Source: Deltaproteobacteria bacterium (GTDB taxonomy: Bacteria > Desulfobacterota > Syntrophobacteria > Syntrophobacterales > Syntrophobacteraceae). From it: a stretch of DNA of 44,957 nt. Positions 23,960 to 43,518 of this stretch are shown piece by piece (the stretch's first letter is position 1; the number at the start of each line of letters is the position of its first letter). The notes beneath the pieces are model-generated. The model searched no databases and was not told where the DNA came from. It saw only the letters and a list, made by a program, of their open reading frames with translations. The stretch spans positions 1-44,957 of the forward strand of contig JAJYTC010000015.1 of NCBI GenBank assembly GCA_021793275.1. The letters run 5' to 3'. A program made the translations under genes and the position numbers.

Positions 23960-26366
<2,407 letters not shown>

Positions 26367-26374
<8 letters not shown>

Positions 26375-26693
26375 GAAAGATTCTTCTGAGAAAAGACTGT
26401 CTTCGGAAGACGAATTCTCCAGGCAAGTGGGCCGCAAAGAAGCTCGTAAGCTGAAGGCCCGGGACCGTAAAGACCATGGGGTGCGGTTCGGACTGGATAT
26501 GCTCGGAGTCATCGGCTGGTCGGTGAGCATACCCGCCCTGGCTGGATCGTTCCTGGGCGCGTGGATTGACCGCACTTGGCCAAGCCGATTTTCCTGGACC
26601 CTGATGCTTCTTTTGGGAGGAATCATTCTAGGTTCAATTAACGCTTGGTACTGGATCAGCCAGGAGCGTAAAAAAATCGAAAAAGACCGATAG
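26367..26693 (+). CDS. atpQ: N-ATPase accessory membrane protein AtpQ (AtpI/AtpZ-like)
   Basis: A 108-residue protein with a charged, lysine-rich N-terminus of about 40 residues and two transmembrane helices, around GVIGWSVSIPALAGSFLGAW and TLMLLLGGIILGSINAWYWI. This hairpin of two helices is the AtpI/AtpZ (ATPase_gene1) type, known as AtpQ in N-ATPase operons, and is thought to assist F0 or c-ring assembly or Mg2+/Ca2+ uptake. In described N-ATPase operons it is followed by atpR; here atpB follows after 11 bp, with no room for atpR. Confidence 0.85.
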
Positions 26694-26704
26694 ACGGAGT
26701 CGCT

Positions 26705-27448
26705 ATGGAACTGGGTTTGGATCATTGGGTGCTCTGCCGCTGGGGGCCGGTGCGCTTGAACGCCACTATCCTCTACACGTGGCTGGTTATGGCGGTTCTG
26801 GTACTGCTCTCCTGGCTGGCAACCCGCAGGCTTTCCACGGATGAAAGAGTTTCCCCCTGGCAAAACCTGCTTGAAGTATTGGTGGGGAGCATGAAGGAAC
26901 AGATCCGGCAGATCACCCAGCAGGACCCGGAGCCTTTCCTGCCGTTCATCGGCACCCTGTTCATTTTTATTTCGTTTTCCAGTCTTTTAACCGTCTTCCC
27001 TGGTTATCATCCGCCGACCTATTCCCTGTCCACTACATCGGCCCTGGCGGTCTGCGCCCTGGCGGCGGTCCCATTTTACGGCATTGCCCGTCAGGGACTG
27101 CGAGCCTACCTGGGGCATTACCTGGCGCCTACAGTCCTGATGTTGCCTTTTCATATCATCTCCGAACTGTCGCGAACCCTTTCTCTTTCGGTGCGGCTCT
27201 TTGGCAACGTGATGAGCGGCGCGCTGATGGGAACCATTCTCCTTGCCGTGGTGCCCTTATTTTTCCCACTGGTCATGCAATTGCTCGAGCTTCTCATCGG
27301 CCAGATCCAGGCCTTTATTTTTGCGGTGCTGGCTACCGTCTATATCGTGTCTGCGGCCCAGGCCCATGAAGAAAAAAAGAGGCCCCGAGTCAAAGGCCCG
27401 GATACAGGAAATCGAGAATCCGATGAATACGGAGGAAAAGTAATATGA
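26705..27448 (+). CDS. atpB: N-type F-ATPase, F0 subunit a
   Basis: A 247-residue integral membrane stator subunit carrying the ion half-channels. It has about five to six hydrophobic helices. The essential stator arginine lies in LSLSVRLFGNVMSGALMG near residue 165, the canonical RLFGN motif. It begins MELGLDHWVLCRWGPVRLNA, typical of the N-type a subunit. The ATG at 26705 has CGGAG upstream. It overlaps atpE by 4 bp. Confidence 0.94.
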   Translation: MELGLDHWVLCRWGPVRLNATILYTWLVMAVLVLLSWLATRRLSTDERVSPWQNLLEVLVGSMKEQIRQITQQDPEPFLPFIGTLFIFISFSSLLTVFPGYHPPTYSLSTTSALAVCALAAVPFYGIARQGLRAYLGHYLAPTVLMLPFHIISELSRTLSLSVRLFGNVMSGALMGTILLAVVPLFFPLVMQLLELLIGQIQAFIFAVLATVYIVSAAQAHEEKKRPRVKGPDTGNRESDEYGGKVI

Positions 27449-27723
27449 GCGCGCTTGAAATTATCAGTATAGTTTCCATCGTCGTCGCCGGTCTGACCAT
27501 TACACTGGGTGCCTTCTTTCCAGCTATGGCCCAGGGCCGCGCTATCTGCCAGGCGCTGGCCTCAATGGCCCAGCAGCCCGACGAAGCCGCCGCTATTTCC
27601 CGCACTCTTTTCGTCGGTCTGGCCATGATCGAATCCCTGGCCATTTATTGCCTCGTCGTGGCCATGATCCTGGTTTTTGCCAATCCCTTCTGGAACTACT
27701 TCATTGCCAGGGCTGGAGGATGA
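27445..27723 (+). CDS. atpE: N-type F-ATPase, F0 subunit c
   Basis: A 92-residue ring-forming hairpin of two helices. Helix 1 has FFPAMAQGRAICQAL (Gln30), the loop has QQPDE, and helix 2 has GLAMIESLAIYCLVV (Glu63, Ser64, Tyr68). Relative to the Ilyobacter Na+ site (Gln32, Glu65, Ser66, Thr67, Tyr70) all are kept except Thr67, which is Leu65 here. The Gln-Glu-Ser-Tyr set suggests Na+ coupling. The stop precedes the atpF GTG by 4 nt. Confidence 0.94.
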   Translation: MSALEIISIVSIVVAGLTITLGAFFPAMAQGRAICQALASMAQQPDEAAAISRTLFVGLAMIESLAIYCLVVAMILVFANPFWNYFIARAGG

Positions 27724-27727
27724 GGCA

Positions 27728-28504
27728 GTGTTGATCGACTGGTTTACCGTGGCCGCACAAATTGTCAACTTCCTGATCCTGGTGGCCCTGCTTAAACACT
27801 TTCTCTATGGTCCAATCATCGCCGCCATGACCGCCAGAGAGGTCAGAATCGAGGCTAACCTCTCGGAAGCAAGGCAAAAAAGGCTGAAGGCGGAGCAAGC
27901 GGAAGCCTCCCTGAACAACAGGATGCGGGAAATTGAACAGCAGCGCCAGGGAATGCTGATTGAGGCAGGGCGCCAGGCCGAAGCCTATAAGCGAGAGCTT
28001 TTCTCTCAAGCCAGGCAGGAAGTGGATGAAATTCGTCGAAAATGGGCGGCTTCCCTGCAGCAGGAGAGGGAGATCTTTCTCAAGGATCTCAAGCAGCGAC
28101 TCGTTCGGGAGGTTTTGGCTATCTCCGGCCAGACTCTGCGGGAAATGGGAAATGTGGAGTTGGAGAAGCAGTTGATCGAGGTCTTTCTGGATCGGCTCCG
28201 GCTGCTTGCCCCCGAGGAGCAGGAGACCATCCGGGAATCAGTTAAGGACCAGGGGGGCGGGTTGCTTATCAATACGGCTTTTGAGCTGCCTGAAGAAATT
28301 CGGAAAAAGATCGTCGCGGCGGTTCGGAGTCAGTTCGGTGTGGATCTTTCGGTCAGGTTCGTCACTTCAGAAAAGTTGCTGGCCGGCATTGAGCTGCTTA
28401 CCGGCTCCCGCAAGCTTGCCTGGAGTATGGGGAGCTTCCTGGACTCCCTCGGGGAGAGCGTCTCCGAGGCTTTTCAGGAGCTTGAAAAAAGCGAGCAGGG
28501 ATGA
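27728..28504 (+). CDS. atpF: N-type F-ATPase, fused b/delta-like stator subunit
   Basis: A 258-residue peripheral-stalk subunit. The N-terminus [20 protein letters not shown] is a single membrane helix. It is followed by a long charged coiled coil (about residues 35-150) and a C-terminal globular part (about 190-245, with [20 protein letters not shown]) resembling the end of the delta subunit. This explains the missing atpH (delta). The GTG at 27728 is chosen because GGAGG lies about 8 nt upstream and matches the usual N-ATPase b start. It overlaps atpA by 4 bp. Confidence 0.9.
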
Positions 28505-30045
28505 ACGTGGAGCTCATGGACCTCTACAGTGTTTTGGACGAGACTGCCTCAGTCCTGGAAAAGGCGTTGAACGGCTGTCGGCCCGGACTAAGGACCCTGA
28601 AAGTGGGCCGAGTCCGCTCGGTGGGAAATGGCATTGCCCTGGTGGAAGGATTGCCCGGAGTTAAAGCGGAGGAAATTATTCGCTTCCCGGAGGGCTTGGA
28701 AGGCGTGGCCCTGAACGTCGAGCCCACTGAAGTGGGCATAGTCCTCCTTGGCGAAGTGGGCGATTTAAAGGCAGGCGCCGAGGTCTTCTGCACCGGCCGT
28801 GTTTTGGACGTCCCGGTTGGGGAGGCGCTTTTGGGACGCGTGGTTGATCCTCTCGGGCGCCCCCTGGACAATCAGGGCCCTGTCCACAGCGTGGAACGCC
28901 GCCCCGTGGAACGGAAAGCACCGCCTATCATGGCTCGGGCCCCTGTAACCGTACCCCTGCAAACGGGCTTGAAAGTGGTCGATGCGCTGGTACCCATAGG
29001 ACGGGGCCAGAGGCAACTGATTCTTGGGGACCGGCAGACGGGAAAGACCGCCATCGCCCTGGATACCGTGATCAACCAAAAGGACACCGGCGTCATCTGT
29101 GTCTATTGCGGAATCGGCCAGAGGGGCACAGCTGTCGCCCAGGTGATTGCCGAATTGCGGGATAAGGGGGCGATGGACCATTGCATCGTCGTGGTGGCTC
29201 CGGGCGAGGTCCAGGCCGGGCTTCATTATGTAGCGCCCTATGCCGCAACCTCTATGGCCGAATACTTTATGGAGAAAGGACGTGATGTTTTGATCGTCTA
29301 TGACAATCTCACCAATCACGCCCGTTCCTATCGTGAGCTGTCCCTGCTGCTGCGCCGTCCTCCAGGGCGGGAGGCCTATCCGGGCGATATATTTTATATC
29401 CATGCCCGCCTGCTTGAGCGCTCCACTCACCTGAAAACCGACAAAGGCGCAGGCTCGCTCACCGCTCTTCCCATCGTGGAGACCGAAGCGCAGAATATTG
29501 CGGCCTATATTCCCACCAATCTCATTTCCATAACCGACGGGCAGATTTACCTCACTCCCGGCTTATTCCAGAAAGGGGTCTTTCCCGCGGTCGATGTTGG
29601 CAAATCGGTCTCGCGGGTAGGCGGCAGAGCTCAGGTGCCTGCCTACAGGGCGGTGGTAGGGGACTTGCGACTTGCGTATTCTCGGTTTCAGGAACTGGAG
29701 GCCTTCTCTCGCTTCGGCTCGCGACTGGATGAACGAACACGGAAAACCTTGGCTCACGGATACCGTGTCCGGGAGGTGCTCAAACAGCCCCAGTTCGATC
29801 CCATGCCCGTGGCCCACCAGGTCGCTGTCCTTTTGGCGCTGACCCACGGTTTGTTTGACGACGTCCCTTTGGAAAAAATCTCGGCAGCAGAAGAGGCAGT
29901 GCGCCGTATGCTCCACGAGCAGCTTCCGGAGGTCGGCCGGCGTATTGAGGCCCGAGAGAATCTTGGCGATGAGGAGCAAGCTCTCATCTTGAGCAAGGCG
30001 AAAGATGCCGTCCAGACGCTGGAGAAAAACGATGGAAGCCGTTGA
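28501..30045 (+). CDS. atpA: N-type F-ATPase, F1 alpha subunit
   Basis: A 514-residue non-catalytic nucleotide-binding subunit. It has the P-loop [18 protein letters not shown] near residue 178, [20 protein letters not shown], the DALSKHA-like region [20 protein letters not shown], and [14 protein letters not shown] with the arginine finger. The N-terminal ~30 residues, which normally contact delta, are short and divergent; this fits the fused b/delta arrangement. The end overlaps atpG by 14 bp. Confidence 0.95.
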
Positions 30046-30916
30046 GCCCCTTCGGAGAAGGGTCGATGTCCTGCAGGAGTTGCGGGAAGTGGTGAAAACC
30101 ATGAAGACCATCGCCGCCGTCACTATCCGGCAATATGAAAAGGCTGTGGTCTCCTTGCGCCGGTACAGCCGCACAATTGAGATGGGAATGCAGGTCGTGA
30201 TGCGCGGCCGGGAGGCAGGGCTTGAAATGCAACCGGTTTCCGGCAGGTGCTTGACAATGATTGTCTTTGGCTCGGAGTTCGGCATGTGCGGCCAGTTTAA
30301 CGAAGTACTAACATCGTTTGCACTGAGCAAATGCAAAGAACTCCAAATCCCGGAACGGGACCGGTCCGTAATTGCCGTGGGGACTCGGGCACTCTCCAGC
30401 CTGGAGGAGATTGGAGCACAAGTGGAGTCGTGGGTTGCTCTTCCCGGCTCCGTAGGCGGCATTACTTCCCGGGTCCAGGAGTTATTGTCCAAGATAGAGG
30501 ACTGGCAGTGTCGGGGGGGAACCGGAAGGATCATGCTCTTCCATAATGAACCGGTCTCGGGGCTGATTTATCGCCCCAAGGCGGTGGCGTTTCTGCCAAT
30601 CGAAATGGAGTGGCAGGGAAGCCTGGAGCAAAAGGCCTGGCCCAGCCGGGTCCTGCCCACTTTCACAATGGGACGGCTCCAACTGATTCATGCCCTGCTG
30701 AGGCAATACCTCTTCGTGATCCTGTACCGTGCTTTTGCAGAGTCCCTCGCCAGTGAAAATATGGCGCGTCTCGCCTGCATGCAGGCTGCTGAAGATAACA
30801 TCGAAGATCGCCTCCAGGAACTGCGGCTGCAATACAATCAGTTGCGACAAGCCGCCATTACTGAAGAACTTTTGGATATTGTTGCCGGATTTGAAGTATT
30901 GACCGAGAAACCTTGA
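30032..30916 (+). CDS. atpG: N-type F-ATPase, F1 gamma subunit
   Basis: A 294-residue central rotor shaft. The N-terminal helix ([25 protein letters not shown]) and the C-terminal helix ([20 protein letters not shown]) form the coiled coil that turns inside alpha3beta3, with a Rossmann-like middle domain ([15 protein letters not shown]). Sequence is divergent from housekeeping gamma, as known for N-ATPases. The ATG at 30032 has TGGAG 7 nt upstream and lies inside the end of atpA. It is the last gene of the operon. Confidence 0.92.
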
Positions 30917-34259: not shown

Positions 34260-34688
34260 CTACTCTTTGGCATCCTTTTGGCGTCGGGTTCGAGCGGCGT
34301 TCATCGTCCTGTCAACCCCGCGGCCGCTCAGAATGAGTCTCACCATGGTCAGGAGCTCCCACTCTTCATACGGCTCCAATATGCAGCCATAGGCGCCAAG
34401 CTCCATAACGCGTCCGATCAAATGGCGGTTGTCCTGGCGGCAGAGCAGAACCAGCTTGGAGTCGGGGCAGGAGGATTGCAGACTGGATATGACCGTTACT
34501 CCGTAAGTTAGCACACTCAGGCAGTCGATAAGGATTATCGAGTTGATCTCCCGTTGAGGACTGGCGCTCAAATCATCCGGAAATACACGCCTTACCTTGA
34601 AATTCTTGTGTTTTTTCAACATGCTCAAAATGCGGGTCCGAACATCGTCGTCCAGAACGATCAGAAAAAATAGAGCAGATTGAGCCAT
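34260..34688 (-). CDS. Stand-alone receiver-like (CheY-fold) protein
   Basis: A 142-residue protein with a receiver-like alternation of strands and helices: ALFFLIVLDDDVRTRILSML (strand 1 plus acidic patch), SIILIDCLSVLTYGV (candidate phosphoacceptor Asp in strand 3), DSKLVLLCRQDNRHLIGRVM, and LGAYGCILEPYEEWELLTMV. The usual strand-5 KP lysine pair appears as EPYEE, so the conserved Lys is missing and normal phosphorylation chemistry is doubtful. A basic tail ends the protein. There is no DNA-binding domain. It is divergently arranged with the amidoligase gene. The frame is open further upstream, but the ATG at 34688 with GGAG before it is the plausible start. Confidence 0.65.
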   Translation of the reverse strand: MAQSALFFLIVLDDDVRTRILSMLKKHKNFKVRRVFPDDLSASPQREINSIILIDCLSVLTYGVTVISSLQSSCPDSKLVLLCRQDNRHLIGRVMELGAYGCILEPYEEWELLTMVRLILSGRGVDRTMNAARTRRQKDAKE

Positions 34689-34955
34689 GATTGATGAACT
34701 CCGATACACAGTCGTCGAAAAAAGCTCATTAGCATTTCCAGGTTCAAGATCTGTGCCCGTCTTCGACGTCCGAAAAACTGCCCGCGGGAATCCGGTATTA
34801 AGGGCGGGATCGGTGGAAGTGTATGAAATGTGTCCCATTGAAAGCAAAAACAGGGTCCATGGTCTTGGAGGACAAGCTTGTGGCCGGAGTTCAAAACTCG
34901 ACCCCCTCCAACCTTCCGTGCGCACATTTCGAGACACTCTATAAGGAGAGCGCTT

Positions 34956-35882
34956 ATGGAAGGGTCCGCAGAGCTTGAGGCGAGGCTCAAAAAGAAGTAT
35001 CCGATGTTGCGTTGCTTCACTGACAGACCTTTTGGAGTGGAAATCGAGTTCTATGGGCTGGACTATTATATACTGCCGCCGGATAACGGCATAATCAAGC
35101 CTTACAATATCCATTCGAAAGCCACTGACGGCAGGAGCTTTCTTCAGTTGCTCGACGATTACCGGTTGCATCTTGGCGCCGACCGGAAATCCTGGCATCT
35201 CGAGGAAGATGGTTCGATCGTGCACCGGGGCGGGGTTGAACTTATAAGCCCCGTTCTGCGGGGCTGCGACGGGCTCCTGGAATTGTATCGTTACTTCCAG
35301 GTGCTGGGCCACATTTTCGGCGTACAGATAGATGCGTCATGCGGATTTCATGTCCATCATGGTGTCTACCCAAGCCAATATAACTGCATGTGCCTTAAAA
35401 TGTTGATAAAAATTGTTTATTCCATGGAAGACTATATTTATTTACTGATCGCAGGAGACAGAAGCCAAAAGGATACGTGCCGTCCTATGGATCTCGATGT
35501 GGATGCCATACTTAAACTTGGCGACTGTGAGGATATATGTAAAAATACCGGATGTAAACTTAAGGAGTTGTGGTATTCAAAAATAAATGGATATGATCAA
35601 CGTCGCGATATGTCCGACAGATATAATTTCACGCGATATCATGGTTTGAATCTTCATTCATATTGGTATCGGTCCACTATCGAATTCAGATATCACTCGG
35701 CGATATTGCACCAAATAGATGAAGCAATGCAGTGGATAATTTTTACGCAGTTGCTTGTCGAGCTTAGCGGAGGATCTATACCAAAGATTGATTATCTATC
35801 AAACTCGAACAAATGGATGAAAGCTATATACAAAATATATCTTGCGTTTGGCTATATGAATCATATTAATAATCTGAGATGA
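34956..35882 (+). CDS. Amidoligase (glutamine-synthetase-like fold, Amidoligase_2 type)
   Basis: A 308-residue protein with the conserved residues of the COOH-NH2 amidoligase superfamily: GVEIEF (Glu29, Glu31), GGVELISP (Glu95), CGFHVHHG (His132, His134) and STIEFRYH (Glu243, Arg245). The family is predicted to form amide or peptide bonds with ATP and two or more metals, on cell-wall peptides, small metabolites or protein termini. Such genes are often found next to class II glutamine amidotransferases, as here (two follow). The ATG at 34956 has AAGGAG 7 nt upstream. The second half of the gene is strikingly AT-rich relative to the first. The substrate is unknown. Confidence 0.8.
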   Translation: MEGSAELEARLKKKYPMLRCFTDRPFGVEIEFYGLDYYILPPDNGIIKPYNIHSKATDGRSFLQLLDDYRLHLGADRKSWHLEEDGSIVHRGGVELISPVLRGCDGLLELYRYFQVLGHIFGVQIDASCGFHVHHGVYPSQYNCMCLKMLIKIVYSMEDYIYLLIAGDRSQKDTCRPMDLDVDAILKLGDCEDICKNTGCKLKELWYSKINGYDQRRDMSDRYNFTRYHGLNLHSYWYRSTIEFRYHSAILHQIDEAMQWIIFTQLLVELSGGSIPKIDYLSNSNKWMKAIYKIYLAFGYMNHINNLR

Positions 35883-35975
35883 CATGTGCGTGCCTAGTGT
35901 TGCGTCGCACAAATAAGTGAATATTTTGAATTATGAATTTTCTCAGCCCCGCGAAGGCGGGTGGCCGGAGACCTT

Positions 35976-36046
35976 GATCTGTACCCCGTGGGGATGCGGG
36001 GGGAGTGAGTGGCTCCCCGCGCTTTTGCCCTCAACCTGCCGAACAA
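35976..36046 (+). repeat. GC-rich palindromic element, copy B, in the amidotransferase leader
   Basis: It contains ACCCCGTGGGG, then GGGGAG (36000-36005) pairing with CTCCCC (36013-36018), then CGCTTTTGC and CGAACAA. The block order matches copy A at 754-816. Just upstream, CCCGC-GAAG-GCGGG (35948-35961) forms another short hairpin. It occupies the 178-bp gap between the amidoligase and the first amidotransferase, and could be a dispersed palindrome or a structured 5' leader. Confidence 0.5.
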
Positions 36047-36060
36047 GGAAACCATAAGAG

Positions 36061-36804
36061 ATGTGCGACATATTTGCGCTCTGCGCCGGGAACAACTATA
36101 CGGCCCAACAGTACCTGCCCATATTCGCCGAAAAGGGCAGGCGGAACATGAACGGCTGGGGCATCGGTTTTTATCGCGACTCCCGGGCCTTTGTGGAGAA
36201 GTCATCGGAACGCGTCTATGACAGCGAGCATGTGCACGAAAGTTTTCAGAGGCTGGCAAGGGTTGTAGACAGCCGGATCATCGTCTCGCACATTAGCTGT
36301 CCCCTGAACGGTGGCCGCCACTCTGCTTACAACCATCCGTTTTCCTTGTCGTTTCTCGACCATGTATGGCTTTTTGTTCATGTCGGGCTGGTAAAGGGAA
36401 TCAACAGTTATCAAACCGCCAATGAACCCCGGATTGATGTCGATGTCTATCCCGCCAGGGTGTTTGAATATCTAAGGGACCAACTCGTCTCTTATATGCG
36501 GTTTACTCCCTATGAAAGTCTTACCCGATCGCTTACAAAAAGCATAAAGAACCTGATTGCGGATTATCCCGGCTATTACGCATTCTTTCTCGCCAACGAA
36601 TCCGTCCTTTTCGCCTTTTTCAATTTTCGGTCGTTGATGCTTCTGCGGGAATCGGGAAGCTGTGGAAACAGCCTTGTAGTGACTTCCATTGCGGAGGGGC
36701 TGAGTGATAAGGGCTGGGCCGAGGTAAAACCCGCGGATAATACCCCGGGAAAGCTGTTGGTGGTTGCCGGACCGGATGTATTGTACCTTGGAGACTTGGC
36801 ATAA
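36061..36804 (+). CDS. Class II glutamine amidotransferase-like protein with degenerate active site
   Basis: A 247-residue YafJ/GATase_4-type Ntn domain beginning Met-Cys (MCDIFALCAG), so Cys2 can become the N-terminal nucleophile. MNGWGIGFY and NHPF are conserved. Two key positions are changed relative to the paralogue that follows: the substrate-binding Arg of HVR is Ser79 (SHISCP), and the oxyanion-hole Asn of AHNG is Val108 (FVHVG). Glutaminase activity is therefore doubtful. It may be a pseudoenzyme partner, a binding protein, or an enzyme of altered chemistry. Both proteins have exactly 247 residues and align without gaps through the first 110. Confidence 0.82.
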   Translation: MCDIFALCAGNNYTAQQYLPIFAEKGRRNMNGWGIGFYRDSRAFVEKSSERVYDSEHVHESFQRLARVVDSRIIVSHISCPLNGGRHSAYNHPFSLSFLDHVWLFVHVGLVKGINSYQTANEPRIDVDVYPARVFEYLRDQLVSYMRFTPYESLTRSLTKSIKNLIADYPGYYAFFLANESVLFAFFNFRSLMLLRESGSCGNSLVVTSIAEGLSDKGWAEVKPADNTPGKLLVVAGPDVLYLGDLA

Positions 36805-36840
36805 TCCGAATTCCTTAATCTGAAAACGAGGTTTTCCGTT

Positions 36841-37584
36841 GTGTGCGACTTGTTTGCTCTATCTGCTGCCACGACTTATTCGGCTCCCCGCTCCCTTCCG
36901 ATTTTTGCGGCCAGGGCGAGCAGGAATATGGACGGCTGGGGGATAGGATTTTACAAAAAATCTCATGCTCATGTAGAAAAATCCGCCGCTCGCGCCTATG
37001 AGCAAGGAAGGCTCCATGATGGTTTTCAAAGGCTTGCACGAGTTATCGCGAGCAAGTTCATCATCGCGCATGTGCGTTTGCGCTCAAGCGGTCCGGTCGA
37101 TGAATGTCACTCCCACCCTTTTGCAGTCCGGTTCGAGGGGGAGGACTGGTTATTCGCCCACAATGGCAAAGCGCCGGCTATCGAGTCGTATCGAGGCCAA
37201 AGGATCAGGCTGGAGGACGTGGTGAGCGATTCGGCAAGGATCTTCGAGTTCCTCCTGGACGGCATCGGGGCCGTGCGCAAAACAGGGGGCGATCCTTATC
37301 CTCTTTTCGTGGCGATCGCCGGGGCTTCGACGCGGCTTATCCGAGAATATCCCGGAACGTATAACTTTTTGTTGACCAATGGTTCGGTTCTGTTCGCCTT
37401 CAGCAATCACAGGCAATTTCTGTTGCTAAAGGGCAGTGAGAACCTCGAAAAAGCCCTGCTCCTTACCACAGTCGAGCAGGGTTTGAGCGGGGAGAACTGG
37501 GTAAGGTTCGCCAAGAGCGCCGGGTCGGCCGGGCTTTTGATGGCGATTGCCGGAAGCGACATAGTGCTAAAAGAAGAATTGTGA
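36841..37584 (+). CDS. Class II glutamine amidotransferase (YafJ/GATase_4 type), intact active site
   Basis: A 247-residue Ntn-hydrolase-type glutaminase domain that releases ammonia from glutamine. The GTG start at 36841 places Cys at residue 2 (MCDLFALSAA). Other motifs are MDGWGIGFY, IIAHVRLRSSG (Arg79), SHPF and WLFAHNGK (Asn108-Gly109), all matching the catalytic set of class II amidotransferases. It follows the degenerate paralogue by 36 bp, so they are a tandem duplication, probably co-transcribed. No synthase domain is fused, so ammonia is presumably delivered to a separate enzyme; the amidoligase just upstream is the obvious candidate. Confidence 0.85.
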   Translation: MCDLFALSAATTYSAPRSLPIFAARASRNMDGWGIGFYKKSHAHVEKSAARAYEQGRLHDGFQRLARVIASKFIIAHVRLRSSGPVDECHSHPFAVRFEGEDWLFAHNGKAPAIESYRGQRIRLEDVVSDSARIFEFLLDGIGAVRKTGGDPYPLFVAIAGASTRLIREYPGTYNFLLTNGSVLFAFSNHRQFLLLKGSENLEKALLLTTVEQGLSGENWVRFAKSAGSAGLLMAIAGSDIVLKEEL

Positions 37585-37594
37585 GAGGCCCGGA

Positions 37595-37792
37595 TCAGCC
37601 GTTTTCCATTTCACTTTCCATATCGACGAGAGCCTTTTTGGCGTTTACGATCAATTCATAAAAAGCGTCCGACCTGTAAGTGTCAAGGCCGCCGCAACCC
37701 ATGTCGGACGACCTGTCGAAGACATCCTCCTTATCGACGTAAGTTATGAGGGCCTTGGACGCTTCGTAGAATTTTGTGAATTTCTCGTTCAT
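37595..37792 (-). CDS. Small helical protein, function unknown
   Basis: A 65-residue acidic, mostly helical protein (FTKFYEASKALITYVDK, then FYELIVNAKKALVDMESEM) with one Cys in a Gly-rich turn (DMGCGGLDTY). I do not recognise the family. Its ATG overlaps the stop of the metallo-beta-lactamase gene (ATGA), which indicates translational coupling and supports it as a real gene. It converges on the second amidotransferase. Confidence 0.6.
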   Translation of the reverse strand: MNEKFTKFYEASKALITYVDKEDVFDRSSDMGCGGLDTYRSDAFYELIVNAKKALVDMESEMENG

Positions 37793-39021
37793 TTCGTTTG
37801 CCCCCCGGCGAAATTTTTCCCGAACCTCCGGCTGAATTCGGATTTAAATGCTTCGATTTTCATTGCCTCATCGGTCCTGCCCAGAAAATAGAGGGCCATG
37901 CCTTTAAATACCCGGGTCTCCCTCATCGCGGGCGCCCGGGCGAGCGCCTCGTCAAAATAAGGCAGGCTCTCGGCGTACCTGCTAAGACCGAGCAAGGCTT
38001 GCCCCCTGGCCGCAAGCGTGTAGGCATTTCCGGGTTCTGCGGCCAGTATCAGGTCAAAAACTTCGATGGCCTCCTCACACCGGCCCATGTCGTTTAATGC
38101 GAGGCCCTTCAACTGCATTGCCTGCAAATTCCGAGGTCTCAGGGCCAGTTCTTTGCCGCAGCAGTAGACGACTTCGCCGAGCAGTCCCTTTTCCGCCATG
38201 CCCCTGGCTCCTTCCATCCACGTCACCTTGTCCTCGGGAGCTGTCTTTAGAACTTTCATCATCACGCCTTCATAGGATTCTTCAACGGCGCGACTGCCGG
38301 TGTAGGCCACAGGGACGCCATGGCCGGGCAGAACGTGAACGATATTCTTTTGCATTATTTGCCTGAGCCCGTAGAGATAGTGGTCCAATGAGCCCCCGGC
38401 AGACTTGTCGACCTCGGCCATGGAGTCCGGGAGCACGGTATCTCCGGAAATAAGCGTCCCCGTCGGCTGGTGGTAAAGGCATATACTGTCCATGGTGTGG
38501 CCGGGCGTATGAATCACCTCCCACTCGTAGCCGCTCAGCTCTATCGTTTCAGCTCCCGTGAGTTCCCTCGGGGGAAATCCGGCATCGCGGACAAGCCTTT
38601 TCAGCTCCTGCGGACCCGCTTCATGCATGAGGATCTCGACGTTTTTATTTTCCATTACGGCGGGAAATCGCAACAATTCGAATATACCCATACAGTGGTC
38701 GCGGTGTCCGTGGGTCAGCACCACCTTCCTTATATCGAGGGGGTCAAAGCCCAATTTTTTCAAATCGAAGAAAATAGTGTAATCATTTCCAGGATCTACG
38801 AGTGTAAGGGAATCGCCCGCAAGCAGGTACGCGTTGCTTGAATGGTGATAGCCGATAAGAAAACTGCTGTTGGCCAGGGCGGGATGGGATTCTTTCAAAA
38901 TCTCACCGATTCCGAGCCAACCCGGATGGAGCGGCTCTTCAGCCGACGGATGCTCGTCTTCTATTAGCTGCCTCAGTTCCGGCCCGGGTCCCTGCCTTTC
39001 GTCCGTCTCTTTGTTGGTCAT
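37789..39021 (-). CDS. Metallo-beta-lactamase-fold hydrolase fused to TPR repeats
   Basis: A 410-residue protein. Residues ~50-265 are a metallo-beta-lactamase domain with VVLTHGHRDHCMGI (HxHxDH), HTPGHTMDSICLY, LISGDTVLP and VLPGHGVPV, which supply the two-metal ligands. Residues ~285-400 are TPR-like helical repeats (NLQAMQLKGLALNDMGRCEE, AYTLAARGQALLGLSRYAES, MRETRVFKGMALYFLGRTDE). MBL enzymes hydrolyse thioesters, lactones or similar; the TPR part suggests protein binding. The ATG at 39021 has AAGGAG about 6 nt upstream. It lies downstream of a terminator that separates it from the CoA-transferase operon, and is coupled to the 65-residue gene. Confidence 0.85.
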   Translation of the reverse strand: MTNKETDERQGPGPELRQLIEDEHPSAEEPLHPGWLGIGEILKESHPALANSSFLIGYHHSSNAYLLAGDSLTLVDPGNDYTIFFDLKKLGFDPLDIRKVVLTHGHRDHCMGIFELLRFPAVMENKNVEILMHEAGPQELKRLVRDAGFPPRELTGAETIELSGYEWEVIHTPGHTMDSICLYHQPTGTLISGDTVLPDSMAEVDKSAGGSLDHYLYGLRQIMQKNIVHVLPGHGVPVAYTGSRAVEESYEGVMMKVLKTAPEDKVTWMEGARGMAEKGLLGEVVYCCGKELALRPRNLQAMQLKGLALNDMGRCEEAIEVFDLILAAEPGNAYTLAARGQALLGLSRYAESLPYFDEALARAPAMRETRVFKGMALYFLGRTDEAMKIEAFKSEFSRRFGKNFAGGQTK

Positions 39022-39041
39022 GACTTCTCCTTAAAAGAACG

Positions 39042-39073
39042 AAAAACCCCCTCTTGCGGCATTAAAGAGGGGG
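39042..39073 (-). terminator. Rho-independent terminator after the CoA-transferase operon
   Basis: On the minus strand CCCCCTCTT pairs with AAGAGGGGG (plus positions 39065-39073 and 39047-39055) and is followed by five T (39042-39046). It lies between the end of the 140-residue protein gene (39149) and the metallo-beta-lactamase start (39021). Because the next ATG is only about 20 bp beyond, read-through or attenuation into that gene is possible. Confidence 0.8.
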
Positions 39074-39148
39074 CCGGGAACATTTTTTCACCTTTTTCCC
39101 GGGATCGGGCAAAAGGCAGATGAATCCTGTTTGCAGCCACTGCGCGCT

Positions 39149-39571
39149 TCACCCGATGTATTCAAGGGTATAGCTCAATTTCATCCTGTCGTCCGGCCAC
39201 CACTTCTTACTCAATTTTTCCTGGCCGGGATAGACATCCTTGCCGTCAATCTTCTCGATCGACAGTTCGAGGAAATGGAACTCCGTGAGCTTGTACTTTT
39301 TGATCACCTCGCTTGGAATCAGCACCGCAAGGCCGCTCTCATGCGAGCATTCCCATTCAAACGGTTCGTCCGGGGTCGCTTCGGCCTGGCCTGTTTTGCC
39401 TGCGTAAACCTTGACCAGCTTGCCCTGGACCTTCGATTTCGGCTTCATCTGGAATTCATTATACAGCTCGTCGGAAACGTGCCACCAACAGGCTCTCGCA
39501 TTGGCGGCCGCGTATGCCTTGACGAGCATCGGATCGAAGCCGCATACAACCACACGGCATTTTTCCGGCAT
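39149..39571 (-). CDS. Conserved-looking small protein of the CoA-transferase operon (140 aa)
   Basis: A 140-residue protein I cannot assign to a family. It begins MPEKCRVVVCGFDPMLVKAYA, has a short Cys/Trp-rich patch (ACWWHVSDELYNEFQMK), and a mainly beta second half (LAVLIPSEVIKKYKLTEFHF, LELSIEKIDGKDVYPGQEKL). There is no signal peptide or membrane segment. The ATG at 39571 has GGAGG upstream. It is the last of four small genes after the CoA-transferase pair and starts 1 bp after the preceding stop. Tight packing suggests it acts with its neighbours, possibly as a subunit. Confidence 0.7.
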   Translation of the reverse strand: MPEKCRVVVCGFDPMLVKAYAAANARACWWHVSDELYNEFQMKPKSKVQGKLVKVYAGKTGQAEATPDEPFEWECSHESGLAVLIPSEVIKKYKLTEFHFLELSIEKIDGKDVYPGQEKLSKKWWPDDRMKLSYTLEYIG

Positions 39572-39572
39572 C

Positions 39573-39863
39573 TCAAGCCTCCTTCCCGGTTTCGGCGTTT
39601 TTCGCCTGTCTAAGTTGAACGCGAAGGTCCTCAACCTGGTCGAAACAATAGCGCATAAACTCATCTGCCTCGGCTTCGCTCAGGTGGTTGGCTTCAATCA
39701 GTCTCCTGACATAGGGATAGATATGAAGTTGGACCTCCTCGACGAATTCCATAAGCACATGATCGTTATCCCCATCGGGCGATGCCCAGCTAAGAAAACC
39801 TTTTTTCCAGTTTTCAAGCATCACCTTGAGAGCATCGAGTTCCTCGCGAACGTTTTGTTCCAT
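39573..39863 (-). CDS. Small helical protein of the CoA-transferase operon (96 aa)
   Basis: A 96-residue, acidic, all-helical protein (REELDALKVMLENWKKGFLS, then DHVLMEFVEEVQLHIYPYVR and EADEFMRYCFDQVEDLRVQL). No family is recognised and no membrane segment or metal motif is seen. The ATG at 39863 directly follows the preceding stop (TAGCATG), which argues for translational coupling. A role as a small subunit or chaperone of the neighbouring proteins is a guess from context. Confidence 0.65.
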   Translation of the reverse strand: MEQNVREELDALKVMLENWKKGFLSWASPDGDNDHVLMEFVEEVQLHIYPYVRRLIEANHLSEAEADEFMRYCFDQVEDLRVQLRQAKNAETGKEA

Positions 39864-39864
39864 G

Positions 39865-40101
39865 CTAGGCCTTCTTTTTGGGGTCATAGGCATAGCATTT
39901 CTTCACCACGTTGAAGTCCGCTACGCACCAGTAATGAGGCCAGTGGATCTTCTTGCACCAGCCGATGATGTCTGCAGGCGGAAACTTGGAGCCTTTGAGC
40001 ACGGGCTTCAGGTGTTTGCACTGCCAGCATATATGCTCACTCTGTTTTTCCGGGACAAGCACAGTGTCCAGGAAATCTTCAGGCGTCAACTGTTGTGACA
40101 T
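39865..40101 (-). CDS. Small cysteine-rich metal-binding-type protein (78 aa)
   Basis: A 78-residue protein with cysteines spaced ICWQCKHL, GWCKKIHWPHYWC and KKCYAYDP. This C-x2-C ... C ... C ... C pattern with nearby His fits a zinc or Fe-S site, as seen in small subunits of some anaerobic enzymes and in HiPIP-like or zinc-ribbon proteins; no family assignment is made. The ATG at 40101 has AAAGGAG about 8 nt upstream. Its stop is next to the following start, so it is part of the same operon. Confidence 0.7.
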   Translation of the reverse strand: MSQQLTPEDFLDTVLVPEKQSEHICWQCKHLKPVLKGSKFPPADIIGWCKKIHWPHYWCVADFNVVKKCYAYDPKKKA

Positions 40102-40120
40102 GCAACACTCCTTTCGCAAG

Positions 40121-40606
40121 CTACCAGTCCTTTACTTCGCCGGCCGCCAGCTTCTTCTGATATTCCTCCCACACCTCGGGTGAGAGCTTCGCAATATCCC
40201 ACTTGAAGCCGTGGCTTCCGGCCAAACCAGCGGAGGGCGGCTGCGGACGCCATCCGCGCACCGGCCGGCCCCGGATGCTGAATTTCACCATGTCGGCTAC
40301 ACCCAGCAGTTCTTTTCTCGGAGTGCACTGGAAAGGCCTGGTCCGGCCGTTCACCCCCGGCCTGTAGCTGGAGTAGCCGTCGTAGGGTTTGTCAGCGTAA
40401 ATCGGCGAAGTGTCCGGTTTTTCGCCGTCTCTTTCTTCGGGTCCCCTGTACATGAAGCCCTGAATCATATGGATGTAATAGACCGTTCCGCACTCGGCGC
40501 AGTTGATCGTCCCCTCCCAGTTCCAGAAGTAGTAAGGATCCAGGTAGTTGATCGTGTCGCATGGCTTACCGTTCACTTCCTTCTTGCACCAAATGATGTC
40601 ACACAC
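40121..40606 (-). CDS. Zinc-ribbon-like protein of the CoA-transferase operon (161 aa)
   Basis: A 161-residue protein with N-terminal cysteines MCDIIWCKKEVNGKPC and then INCAECGTVYYIHMI, a likely two-knuckle zinc (or iron) ribbon. An aromatic, Tyr/Pro-rich middle and a C-terminal segment rich in Arg and Trp follow. I do not recognise the family. Small zinc-ribbon proteins accompany several anaerobic CoA-thioester pathways, such as BbsA in toluene degradation, but this is only analogy. It follows the CoA-transferase gene by 12 bp. Confidence 0.7.
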   Translation of the reverse strand: MCDIIWCKKEVNGKPCDTINYLDPYYFWNWEGTINCAECGTVYYIHMIQGFMYRGPEERDGEKPDTSPIYADKPYDGYSSYRPGVNGRTRPFQCTPRKELLGVADMVKFSIRGRPVRGWRPQPPSAGLAGSHGFKWDIAKLSPEVWEEYQKKLAAGEVKDW

Positions 40607-40618
40607 GGGAGCCTCCTT

Positions 40619-42034
40619 TTAGATGTAGGCCTTTTTGTACCATTCTTCGATCTTGCTAAGCGGAAAACCGAGCAGATCGCGGTAGATCTTCTTGTTGTCC
40701 GCGCCAAGGGGACGCCAGTGCCAGTTTATCCTCCTGGGGGTCTTTTCCATCAACCCGGTGCTGTAACCGCCGTGGACCAGCACATCACCAAACAGTGGGT
40801 CTTCCATCCACCGGACGGTGCCTCTTTCGCGGTAGTGCGGGCTTTCATAGACCTCTCGGTCGTTTCGAACGGGTTCAGCCAGAAGACCTGCATCGGTCAG
40901 GAACTTGGCCACCTCGGACCTGCTCTTGTCCGCGGCCCATCTTTCCAGGGCGCCGTAAATCTCCACCTGCGCCTCGCCTTCGACCCGGTCCTTGTGGGCC
41001 TTGTACTTTTCGTAGAGTTCCTTTAGCCCCGTGATGTCGCACAGTTCCTTGAAGTCCCGGTCCTGGAACGCGCTCACCATGACGTACCTGGCGTCGTATT
41101 TGTCCTGCGGATTTTCCGCATCCGGGAAATCGGACTTTCCGCACAAAATAATGCCGTGCACTGCAAGCTGGGTGTCCCAGTTGCCCCATCGCTGGCGAAC
41201 GATGCCGAACTTGCCGTACATCGTCGTGGTATGGCCGAGCATCCTGGTAGGGACCTGCACCTGGGAGAATTCGATCATGGTGCCAAGCCCCGTCTTCCTG
41301 CGGTGATGGATCGCCGCCATGATGGCGCAGGATATAAGGTTGCCCGATTGCCAGTCGATGACCCAGTTGGTGCACTTCGAACAGTGCCCGCCCATGAACT
41401 CGTGCATGCCGGTAATGGAGGCGAGCCCGGCGTGGGCCTGGCCCAGGATGTCGTAGGAGCCGCCGAATATCTTCGGGCCGTAGCCGAAACCGCCGCCCCA
41501 GACGTAAATGAACCTGGGGTTGATTTCACTCAAGTACCGGTAGCTCATTTTCCATTTGTCAAGGGTCCCCGGCCGGTAGAGTTCGGTCATGCCGTCGGAT
41601 TTTTTCACCAGGCTGTAGAACACTTCCCGCATCTCGGGGATGTGGTAATCGATCGTGATAAAGTATTTGTTCGGGTTGGCGTTTGTATAGCCAAGGCCCG
41701 TGCCGGTTGTCGGACGCATATCGCTGAACGGGTAAAGATAGACCTCGTTGAATGGCGAGGTGTGCCGCATCGGTTCACCCATCCTCGGTATTTCGAGCTT
41801 TATGACTTCGGCCCCCAGTTCGGCCAGGTTGGCGACGGCGTGAGGGGTGAAGATATACATGGTACAGCTGAGCCACCGAATCCCTTTAAGAGGCCTTGGC
41901 TTCGTATGCTCTTTGCCAATATCGAAGAGTTTTTTGCAGTACTCTTCGTAAGGCATCTTGAACTCTTCCATCTCACCTTTGCTCTTGGGGCCAGGCAACT
42001 CTTCCATGCGTGTTACTCTCGGATCTTGCGCCAT
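40619..42034 (-). CDS. Family III CoA-transferase (CaiB/BaiF), subunit or paralogue 2
   Basis: A 471-residue CaiB/BaiF-type CoA-transferase. The N-terminal part has [20 protein letters not shown], the middle has [16 protein letters not shown] and [16 protein letters not shown], and the candidate catalytic Asp is in [20 protein letters not shown], the position of the Asp in the family motif before the helix. Family III enzymes move CoA between carboxylates through an aspartyl-CoA thioester. The ATG at 42034 overlaps the stop of the previous CoA-transferase gene, a sign of a heteromeric enzyme like BbsEF. The substrate is unknown; aromatic or alicyclic acids are plausible. Confidence 0.87.
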
Positions 42035-43518
42035 TAGATCACCCCCTTCTGTTTCATCGCCGTTACTGCGCTCTGGGTCATTCCAGTCCATCTCAAATAG
42101 ATCTCGTAGTTGTCATAGCCGATATCTCTGCCCATCCACTTGCACCTGAAGGGAGCGCGAAGCTGGTAGGACGCCGGGCTCGAAGCGATCAGCAGCGGGC
42201 CGTAATCGGTCTCGTGCACGTAGACCCACGGGCGGTATTTGAAATGCGGGAATTCGCAGACCTCGTCGATGTAGAGGACAGGGCCGGCAGCCACCTGGTA
42301 TTCGAGCAGCTTGGTCTCGGCCTCGACCCGGTTGGTGTCCCTCAGCCACCGCGCAGTCAGGGTGTATGTCTTTATAAGTGCGTGCAGGGCGTTTCTTGCC
42401 GCCATCTCTTTTAGAAGAGGGTCTTCGTGGATCAGCCTGCCGAACTGCGGATCGTCACGCTCCAGGCAAAATCCGATATTGTACCAGAGCTTGTCGGTCT
42501 GGCCGCCGATCATCATGTAGCCGTCTTTGCAGGGGTTCCAGGCATATTGATTGAGGCATGCGTCCCAGCCCCCCGTGCGGGATTTTATACTGCTGTTGAA
42601 ACCGTACCAGGTAATATCGAAATCGAGAATGTCGAGCAGGGCTTCGGCGCCTGAGACCTCTATCATCTGGCCCGTACCGCCCTGCTCATCTCTCCAATAG
42701 AGGGCAGCAAGGGCGTTGAGAAATCCCTGGGCGCCCGCGACATAGTCGGCAAGCCAGATTGCCGGGCGTGTGGGGTCGCCTCCTTTGCCCCGAGGCAAAA
42801 GGTCCTGGGCCAGGCCGGTGTTGTGGATCCACGAATTTGCGGCGCTCGCGAAAGGCTCCATCATCCACTGGCCGAACTTGGACTGTTTGTCTTTCCACGG
42901 GCCCCACTGGCCCATCATGCCCATCCACACATAGACCATCCTGGGGTTTAGTTCCTTTAGCTGGCGATAGCCGATCCCCAGGTCATCCATGTAGCCGGGC
43001 GGCATTCCGTCGATCAGCACATCGACGTTTGCCGCCATTTTTTTGTATATTTCCCGCCCTTCGGCAGTCTCTACATCAAGGGTCACGCAGTACGTATTGA
43101 CCGTCTCGTTTACGAATTCCATCCCGCACTTTTCACCGCTCTCCTTGTTTTGCAGAAAATACTCCTCGCGGCCGAAGGGCGTGAGCTTCCTCAAAGGATC
43201 TCCTGCGGGCGGCTCGATGCTCACGACTTCGGCTCCCGCCTCGCCGAACAAAGAGGCGCAAAACTTGTGGCCCAGTCTCCAAAGGCCGATATCCAGGACC
43301 GTTAGTCCCGTCAGGGTCTCATCTTTTTCATATCTTTTTTCGAACCTCAGGTTGTCCTCGGCCCAATCGCAAAACTCCAGCGCCTTCCTTCTCTCGTATG
43401 TCGACTTTACTTCCTCGTAGGAAGGCGGCGGGGTGACCGGGTAAGGCCTTACATCCAAATCCATCAGGCCTATGGTATCGGCCCGACTGTTTATCTCTAT
43501 ATCTCGCTTTTCCGGCAT
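42034..43518 (-). CDS. Family III CoA-transferase (CaiB/BaiF), subunit or paralogue 1
   Basis: A 494-residue CaiB/BaiF CoA-transferase and the first gene of the operon. An N-terminal extension of about 65 residues precedes the core ([20 protein letters not shown], then [20 protein letters not shown]). It has [18 protein letters not shown], and the candidate catalytic Asp in [20 protein letters not shown]. The segment equal to YDxxxQAxSG in its partner is changed ([13 protein letters not shown]), so substrate binding differs between the two. Together they probably form a heteromeric transferase. Transcription is likely from the sigma-54-type site at 43620-43634. Confidence 0.87.

Follow-up and report, generated by a model that had tools for sequence, protein, structure and literature searches.

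What does an amidoligase do with two class II glutamine amidotransferases? This question is raised by a stretch of DNA from a Deltaproteobacteria bacterium of the family Syntrophobacteraceae (assembly GCA_021793275.1, contig JAJYTC010000015.1, positions 1 to 44,957; the whole 44,957-nucleotide stretch is referred to here as the window), in which a gene for an amidoligase (AL) is followed on the + strand by two genes for class II glutamine amidotransferases (GATs), which we call GATa and GATb. We show below that AL, GATa and GATb are, with few exceptions, passed on together as a single unit in sulfate-reducing bacteria and their relatives, and that GATa is under purifying selection as strong as that on its neighbors, with an active site that has been remodelled. 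We propose tentatively that the trio is a three-component amide-forming system encoded on the chromosome.

Arrangement and inheritance of the trio

AL (34956..35882, 308 residues), GATa (36061..36804, 247 residues) and GATb (36841..37584, 247 residues) are head-to-tail + strand reading frames, each of them open and full length; GATb begins with GTG, and the next codon encodes cysteine. The original prediction identified the first gene as an amidoligase, and this is confirmed by a match to PF12224 (Amidoligase_2) with an E value of 1.9e-25 and a score of 90.6 bits against a gathering cut-off of 22, covering positions 2–243 of the 245 in the profile. PF12224 was the sole Pfam family found for AL at E ≤ 0.1, with no match to PF14395, and NCBIfam named no family for it. 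GATa and GATb share 40% identity from end to end, and both match PF13230 (GATase_4), with E values of 8.8e-14 and 4.4e-24, respectively. In NCBIfam they gave only sub-threshold matches, of which EgtC (TIGR03442) was the highest for both, at 29.7 and 39.8 bits against a cut-off of 218.65. As regards an RNA element or terminator between the genes, the window has no Rfam match, and 34600–37800 has no terminator-like site on the + strand; RNA folding of the gap gave a z score of −1.95.

The arrangement was surveyed in the best 80 of 159 matches to AL, which returned 79 loci, some of them cut by contig ends. AL is present at 49–70% identity in 44 of these loci, and GATa lies directly 3′ of it in 38 of the 44. 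GATb is the next gene after GATa in 30 complete loci and one cut locus (L101) out of the 38. Neither of the two findings that would have counted against the original prediction, the lack of any amidoligase match and the lack of linkage in other genomes, was thus obtained. Three others, belonging to group f6 (L083, L094 and L097), have a gene for a cyclic-nucleotide-binding protein after GATa rather than GATb (the family was read from one of them), and in four (L088, L103, L107 and L109) the contig ends no more than 627 bp past GATa. Elsewhere, the contig at L127 stops inside AL, the other half of which is probably L134 from the same assembly, and L129 is a truncated second copy of AL. The median gap is 99.5 bp between AL and GATa (n = 38) and 72.5 bp between GATa and GATb (n = 30), in counts that excluded outgroup GATs scoring below 200 bits. 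The GATa stop codon overlaps the GATb ATG in both of the loci examined from group f12 (L154 and L156), which suggests that synthesis of the two proteins is coupled in this group. The trio remains constant while the flanking genes vary by lineage. We note that no small gene that might encode a precursor peptide or carrier recurs beside the trio across lineages among reading frames of 70 residues or longer, shorter peptides being below the size limit. One of the loci with the trio (L078) is from a cultured isolate, Desulfoferrobacter suflitae DRH4.

The same association is seen when whole genomes are compared. A search of 59 related genomes with the AL from the window (P0001) matched 26, of which 24 were strong (E of 5.5e-75 or better); the other two (G015 and G024) were weak matches to amidoligases of a distant kind. 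The GATa profile gave strong matches in the same 24 genomes and just two hits outside them, a partial one at the end of a contig in G049, a genome 80% complete, and a generic one in G002. Of the 24 genomes, 23 also have GATb; in the remaining one (G051) the contig stops 242 bp past GATa. Across 395 genomes of the phylum, PF12224 occurs in 26, of which 10 are of the trio type (at least 42% identity to P0001), and GATa/GATb pairs occur in the same 10 and in no others, the hit in G283 being a weak generic match. A further 16 genomes were reached via the named loci, at least three of which duplicate genomes already counted, as judged by matches at the same places (G443 = G054, G445 = G051 and G453 = G341). 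GATa is present in 15 of these and GATb in 12 (in one case split over contig ends), and in three of the 16 GATa lies near a contig end with no GATb. It is therefore clear that the trio is a real and conserved locus, and that its arrangement is not due to chance, because GATa is found directly downstream in 38 of 44 AL loci and the genes co-occur genome-wide.

The genes also occur together in genomes where they are not adjacent. In f12, which consists of Desulfobacca-like bacteria, AL stands alone and a GATa–GATb tandem is found elsewhere in the genome; in f6, AL and GATa adjoin, and GATb is found elsewhere. Within the genus of the window the whole unit is present in 4 of 11 genomes and wholly absent from the other 7, and this patchiness suggests that gain or loss of the complete unit has happened more than once.

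Conserved residues and predicted structures

The residues of AL that the original prediction named (Glu29/Glu31, Glu95, His132/His134 and Glu243/Arg245) are strongly conserved: E29, E31, E95, H132, H134 and E243 never vary in 58 aligned sequences, that from the window included, and R245 is kept in at least 90%. They make up the ExE, GxE..SP, HxH and ExR residues that are conserved in Amidoligase_2. The invariant HxH, His132-Val133-His134, is encoded at 35349..35357 (+) within the motif CGFHVHHG, and is a predicted metal/ATP site.

The single-chain model of AL has a mean predicted local distance difference test (pLDDT) score of 82.4. Its top match in the PDB is glutamine synthetase 8fbp (Z 9.8, root mean square deviation 4.0, 208 residues), followed by 1-naphthylamine synthetase (Z 9.2), YbdK (1r8g, Z 9.0) and a plant glutamate-cysteine ligase (2gwc, Z 8.3). 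Foldseek gave a single match at E ≤ 0.001, to 1tt4, whose entry title is predicted glutathione synthase and which aligns to the model over the same ranges as YbdK. AL is thus predicted to have the glutamine-synthetase/glutamate-cysteine-ligase fold, with moderate similarity. It resembles the members of the glutamine synthetase/GCS superfamily, including gamma-glutamylmethylamide and 1-naphthylamine synthetases, in predicted fold (Z 8–10) and in the HxH motif; however, identity is only 7–14% over the structural alignments listed. By profile comparison with glutamine synthetase, the HxH stretch alone aligns (13 columns, E 0.087), which is not significant by itself, and a search of the AL sequence against solved structures gave nothing significant (best E 0.11). 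PF04107 (GCS2), sought in 30 genomes as a potential relative of the ligase, was present in one, which was not informative. On the strength of the structural matches to glutamine synthetase, YbdK and glutamate-cysteine ligase, we infer that AL is an ATP-dependent carboxylate-amine ligase.

The two GATs differ markedly in their active sites, as seen in an alignment of 41 GATa, 36 GATb and 5 outgroup GATs. The aligned positions are those that we take, from general knowledge of the class (GlmS and PurF), to be the oxyanion hole and the glutamine pocket. GATb retains Cys2, Arg79, His107-Asn108-Gly109 and Asp130 in all 36 sequences; in the window the intact His-Asn-Gly is encoded at 37159..37167 (+). 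GATb is accordingly annotated as a predicted class II glutamine amidotransferase or gamma-glutamyl amidase, and its residues agree with the suggestion in the original prediction that nitrogen is supplied by the second amidotransferase. In GATa the nucleophile Cys2 is likewise kept in all 41 sequences, whereas the oxyanion Asn108 and the glutamine-binding Asp130 are found in none and Arg79 in two; the codons at 36379..36387 (+) encode His-Val-Gly in place of His-Asn-Gly. Cys80 and His101 are each present in 41 of 41. Because Asn108 and Asp130 have been lost, and Arg79 nearly so, GATa is, going by its sequence, not a glutaminase. The earlier description of the locus as containing two co-directional glutaminase domains therefore holds for fold and strand, both proteins matching PF13230, and fails for the likely activity of the first.

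GATa has nevertheless been retained: the median ratio of nonsynonymous to synonymous substitution rates (dN/dS) over 72 pairs is 0.121 for AL, 0.117 for GATa and 0.111 for GATb. These values are rough: of 119 pairs 72 were used, synonymous sites being saturated for one or more of the genes in the others, and dS exceeds 1 in many of the 72 as well. All three genes are under strong purifying selection, GATa as strongly as its neighbors.

The single-chain model of GATa (pLDDT 89.6) has the predicted Ntn-hydrolase class II GAT fold with an N-terminal cysteine. The best matches in the PDB are to EgtC (Z 24.9–25.2), in a near tie with PurF (EcPPAT) and 1te5 at 24.1; lower down come other PurF entries (23.6 and below) and GlmS (22.1–22.8). 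By sequence, the solved structures matched by the GATs are 1te5, EgtC and 3mdn. EgtC belongs to ergothioneine biosynthesis, where EgtA and EgtC present the same two folds, a GCS-fold ligase paired with a class II GAT-fold enzyme. Among named families the trio GATs match EgtC best, as does the GATa model by fold; however, both GATs fall below the EgtC cut-off, and AL matches PF12224 alone and no GCS family. A second comparison is with beta-lactam and carbapenam synthetases, in which a class II GAT domain is inactive and lacks the cysteine. GATa resembles these in that a class II GAT fold (fold match Z 9–12) persists beside an amide-forming ligase with no glutaminase function predicted for it, but in the synthetases the GAT domain is fused to an AsnB-type ligase, while GATa in the trio retains Cys2 and has next to it a paralogue whose residues are intact.

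Origin, phage relatives and neighboring genes

A tree of a chosen subset of GATs (47 rows) placed GATa and GATb in a joint group with support of 99/98, within which GATa forms a clade (100/97) and GATb has weak support of its own. Because the two group jointly and GATa is a clade, the sequences indicate that GATa and GATb derive from one old duplication, older than the split of f12 from the rest. The AL tree, which omitted partial rows of fewer than 220 residues (L129 and L138) and 8 of the 13 f12 rows, separated the trio, f12 and outgroup sequences from three distant amidoligases, two of which lie in prophage-like regions (100/100). The outgroup comprises six loci from records titled Aquificota, "bacterium" and Thermodesulfobacteriota. 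A lone class II GAT is found directly upstream of AL in five of these, and the sixth (L136) is cut within AL; none of the five outgroup genomes yielded another GAT of this kind.

Three loci (L091, L096 and L104) carry a derived clade of AL (100/100) without GATs. In two of them, L096 and L104, AL follows a gene for an MfnA-like tyrosine decarboxylase, recognized below threshold at 148–154 bits against 299. We cautiously suggest that AL may work with amines from different sources, and that one amine source may have replaced another in the derived clade. In these two loci (L096:2712-6936 and L104:3132-6936) the paralogous AL stands behind both the MfnA-like PLP decarboxylase and a conserved protein of 500 residues and unknown family; AL at L091 is transcribed divergently from genes related to the 500-residue gene and to one of 119 residues.

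The original prediction stated that amidoligase genes are known to neighbor class II amidotransferases, and this is borne out for phages, as described in PMC10580990 and PMC10945688. According to these and other papers, OM43 phages carry an amidoligase (PF12224) with a GATase (PF13522) (PMC10580990), phage tf has genes for an amidoligase and a glutamine amidotransferase (PMC3517423), Phage-ZRK32 has an amidoligase, a glutamine amidotransferase, a cyclotransferase and a glutathione synthase together (PMC10945688), and one prophage has two amidoligases and a cyclotransferase (PMC11253131). A modification of the cell wall has been proposed, for which PMC10580990, PMC11318856 and PMC11253131 refer to Iyer et al. 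(2009); PMC8976061 and PMC12096838 mention amidoligases in dealing with other ligase families. In the open-licence literature, as represented by titles and the starts of abstracts, the matches listed included no paper on an amidoligase that is encoded on a chromosome beside class II GATs in tandem and no biochemically tested member of Amidoligase_2. The association of amidoligase and class II GAT is thus already known from phages, on which the trio is a variation; the new points are the remodelled GATa and the co-inherited set of three parts.

The trio and the phage cassettes have in common an amidoligase of the same Pfam family beside a class II GAT, and the cassettes sometimes add a gamma-glutamyl cyclotransferase or glutathione synthase. 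The trio differs in being chromosomal with no close phage relatives seen, in having GATs of the PF13230 subfamily, and in having two GATs of which one is remodelled; nor was a cyclotransferase or ATP-grasp gene noted adjoining it, among neighbors that were clustered and in part scanned with Pfam. A class II GAT lies within 1.5 kb of the amidoligase in 19 of 67 viral loci, as judged by a profile grown from two prophage GATs. At 66 of the 67 loci the amidoligase is at most 32% identical to AL, the other being 37% identical over 59 residues; none of 50 phage records reached 60%, and the best among the eight matches listed was about 29%. GATa gave no match in plasmids, and the neighbors of the trio look chromosomal. 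A phage origin of the trio was rejected, given the distance of the viral amidoligases, the separate clade formed by the three sampled, and the lack of a plasmid match to GATa. One related genome (G024) has two prophage-like regions (L070 and L071), both of which hold a distant amidoligase together with a class II GAT (GATase_6 by Pfam in L070); in L071 there follows a short protein that by eye resembles gamma-glutamyl cyclotransferase.

Convergent to the trio in the window is a cassette on the − strand (37789-43518) encoding an MBL-fold protein with TPR, two small proteins that matched no family, a zinc-ribbon protein and two type III coenzyme A (CoA) transferases. The same cassette follows AL, as far as the contig reaches, in L130–L132 and L137, and Desulfobacca-like genomes have a gene of the MBL-TPR cluster near AL. 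A marker gene for the cassette (39149-39664) is present in 34 of the 59 relatives, made up of 19 of the 24 AL genomes and 15 without a trio AL, and is absent from the AL genomes G008, G039, G046, G051 and G054. The cassette was rejected as an obligate fourth component because its marker is missing from five AL genomes and present in 15 that lack the trio AL, and so does not track AL genome-wide. In several Desulfobacca-like loci (L057–L061 and L069) the solo AL comes right after the rpoA/L17 ribosomal operon (by eye) together with an NlpC/P60 gene (by Pfam on the L057 copy), and in family f5 (L052, L054–L056 and kin) the trio follows a gene for a putative ADP-forming acyl-CoA synthetase of 677 residues and faces purL/purQ-like genes (by eye). 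Elsewhere in the window (24552-30916, +) there is an alternate F1F0 ATPase operon, with subunits beta, alpha and gamma above the "alternate" NCBIfam cut-offs and subunit A just below.

Proposed function

The reading that we favor, to which we would give slightly less than an even chance, is a chromosomal three-component amide-forming system in which AL would be the ligase, GATb the source of ammonia and GATa a partner subunit. AL, with its glutamine-synthetase/GCS fold, would activate a carboxylate using ATP; the N-terminal cysteine of GATb would hydrolyze glutamine, and the ammonia would be passed to AL. GATa would not hydrolyze glutamine, and a GATa–GATb heteromer may dock on AL, where GATa would shape or gate the channel for the amine. 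The resulting compound would carry a primary amide, formed either on a small molecule or on the carboxylate of a protein or peptide. Ammonia supply is ranked first because GATb alone has the full set of glutaminase residues, and cleavage of the EgtC type is ranked second.

The proposal is favored by the co-occurrence of AL and the GATs, including where they lie apart; by the origin of GATa and GATb in one duplication and the overlap of their genes in f12; by the class II GATs beside AL in outgroup and viral loci; by the predicted fold of AL, which is that of ligases using ammonia or amines; and by the decarboxylase that adjoins AL in the derived clade. Several observations weigh against it. 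Both the family models and the fold comparison put the GATs nearest, among characterized proteins, to EgtC, which is a gamma-glutamyl hydrolase rather than a donor of ammonia. The only GAT beside AL in the outgroup has HHG for HNG in five of five, so an intact oxyanion Asn is not required there. Four of the 44 loci (L091, L096, L104 and L110) hold AL without adjoining GATs, and the AL genome that contains L091 (G440) has neither GATa nor GATb. The structural match of AL stands at a Z of about 9.8 with a deviation of 4.0 and many ties, alongside a non-significant profile match to glutamine synthetase. Finally, the genomes in the co-occurrence counts are related by descent and cannot be taken as independent cases.

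The resemblance to EgtC is a real argument for gamma-glutamyl cleavage, an explanation that we regard as somewhat unlikely overall. On this explanation AL would join the gamma-carboxylate of glutamate to an amine in the manner of EgtA or GCS, other enzymes would act on the product, and GATb would later remove the glutamyl group in the manner of EgtC, with GATa binding or processing a related amide and no free ammonia being channelled. EgtC is the top NCBIfam match not only for GATa and GATb but also for the one outgroup GAT scanned (L132), in all cases below the cut-off, and it is nearest to the GATa model, if in a near tie with PurF (EcPPAT) and 1te5. The AL model is near YbdK and plant glutamate-cysteine ligase and not glutamine synthetase alone, a paralogous AL adjoins the MfnA-like decarboxylase, a prophage amidoligase in the same phylum is near the putative cyclotransferase recognized by eye, and phage and prophage cassettes with a cyclotransferase are described in PMC10945688, PMC11318856 and PMC11253131. 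However, the EgtC matches are far under the family cut-off, no further gene consistently adjoins the trio, whose flanks are lineage-specific, and the nearby CoA-transferase cassette does not track AL. We would rate lower still the more speculative idea that GATa is a novel N-terminal-Cys enzyme or carrier, in which Cys2 and Cys80, with His101, would hold a group (acyl or amine) or relay it from one to the other of GATb and AL, and that the trio makes an undescribed metabolite, cofactor or protein mark in some anaerobic Desulfobacterota.

It is improbable that the trio modifies the cell wall or surface peptides, having come from phage exclusion genes as has been proposed for the amidoligase and GAT of phage phiEco32. 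Phage pairs of amidoligase and GAT do exist, as reported in PMC10580990, and AL in f12 is immediately preceded by an NlpC/P60 gene; but this gene cluster is restricted to f12 loci, the viral amidoligases are distant from AL, the trio clade is separate from the three distant amidoligases sampled, and the phage GATs whose family was seen are GATase_6 rather than GATase_4. Least probable of all, in our view, is that GATa is a duplicate that has decayed and plays no part, leaving AL and GATb as the genes that matter. The loss of its glutamine-hydrolysis residues is what such decay would look like, and yet its dN/dS is as low as those of AL and GATb, it is present in all 24 of the AL relatives, and Cys2, Cys80 and His101 are invariant.

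Taken as a whole, the interpretation in the original prediction is partly supported. PF12224 amidoligases are widespread; the version in the trio is chromosomal, occurs in a cultured isolate and has a small list of parts set by co-occurrence. Its presence in the cultured host Desulfoferrobacter suflitae makes the trio testable, and with so few co-occurring parts a reconstitution from the three proteins could reveal the function of the family. It would also show why GATa, without its pocket, stays under the same selection as the intact GATb.

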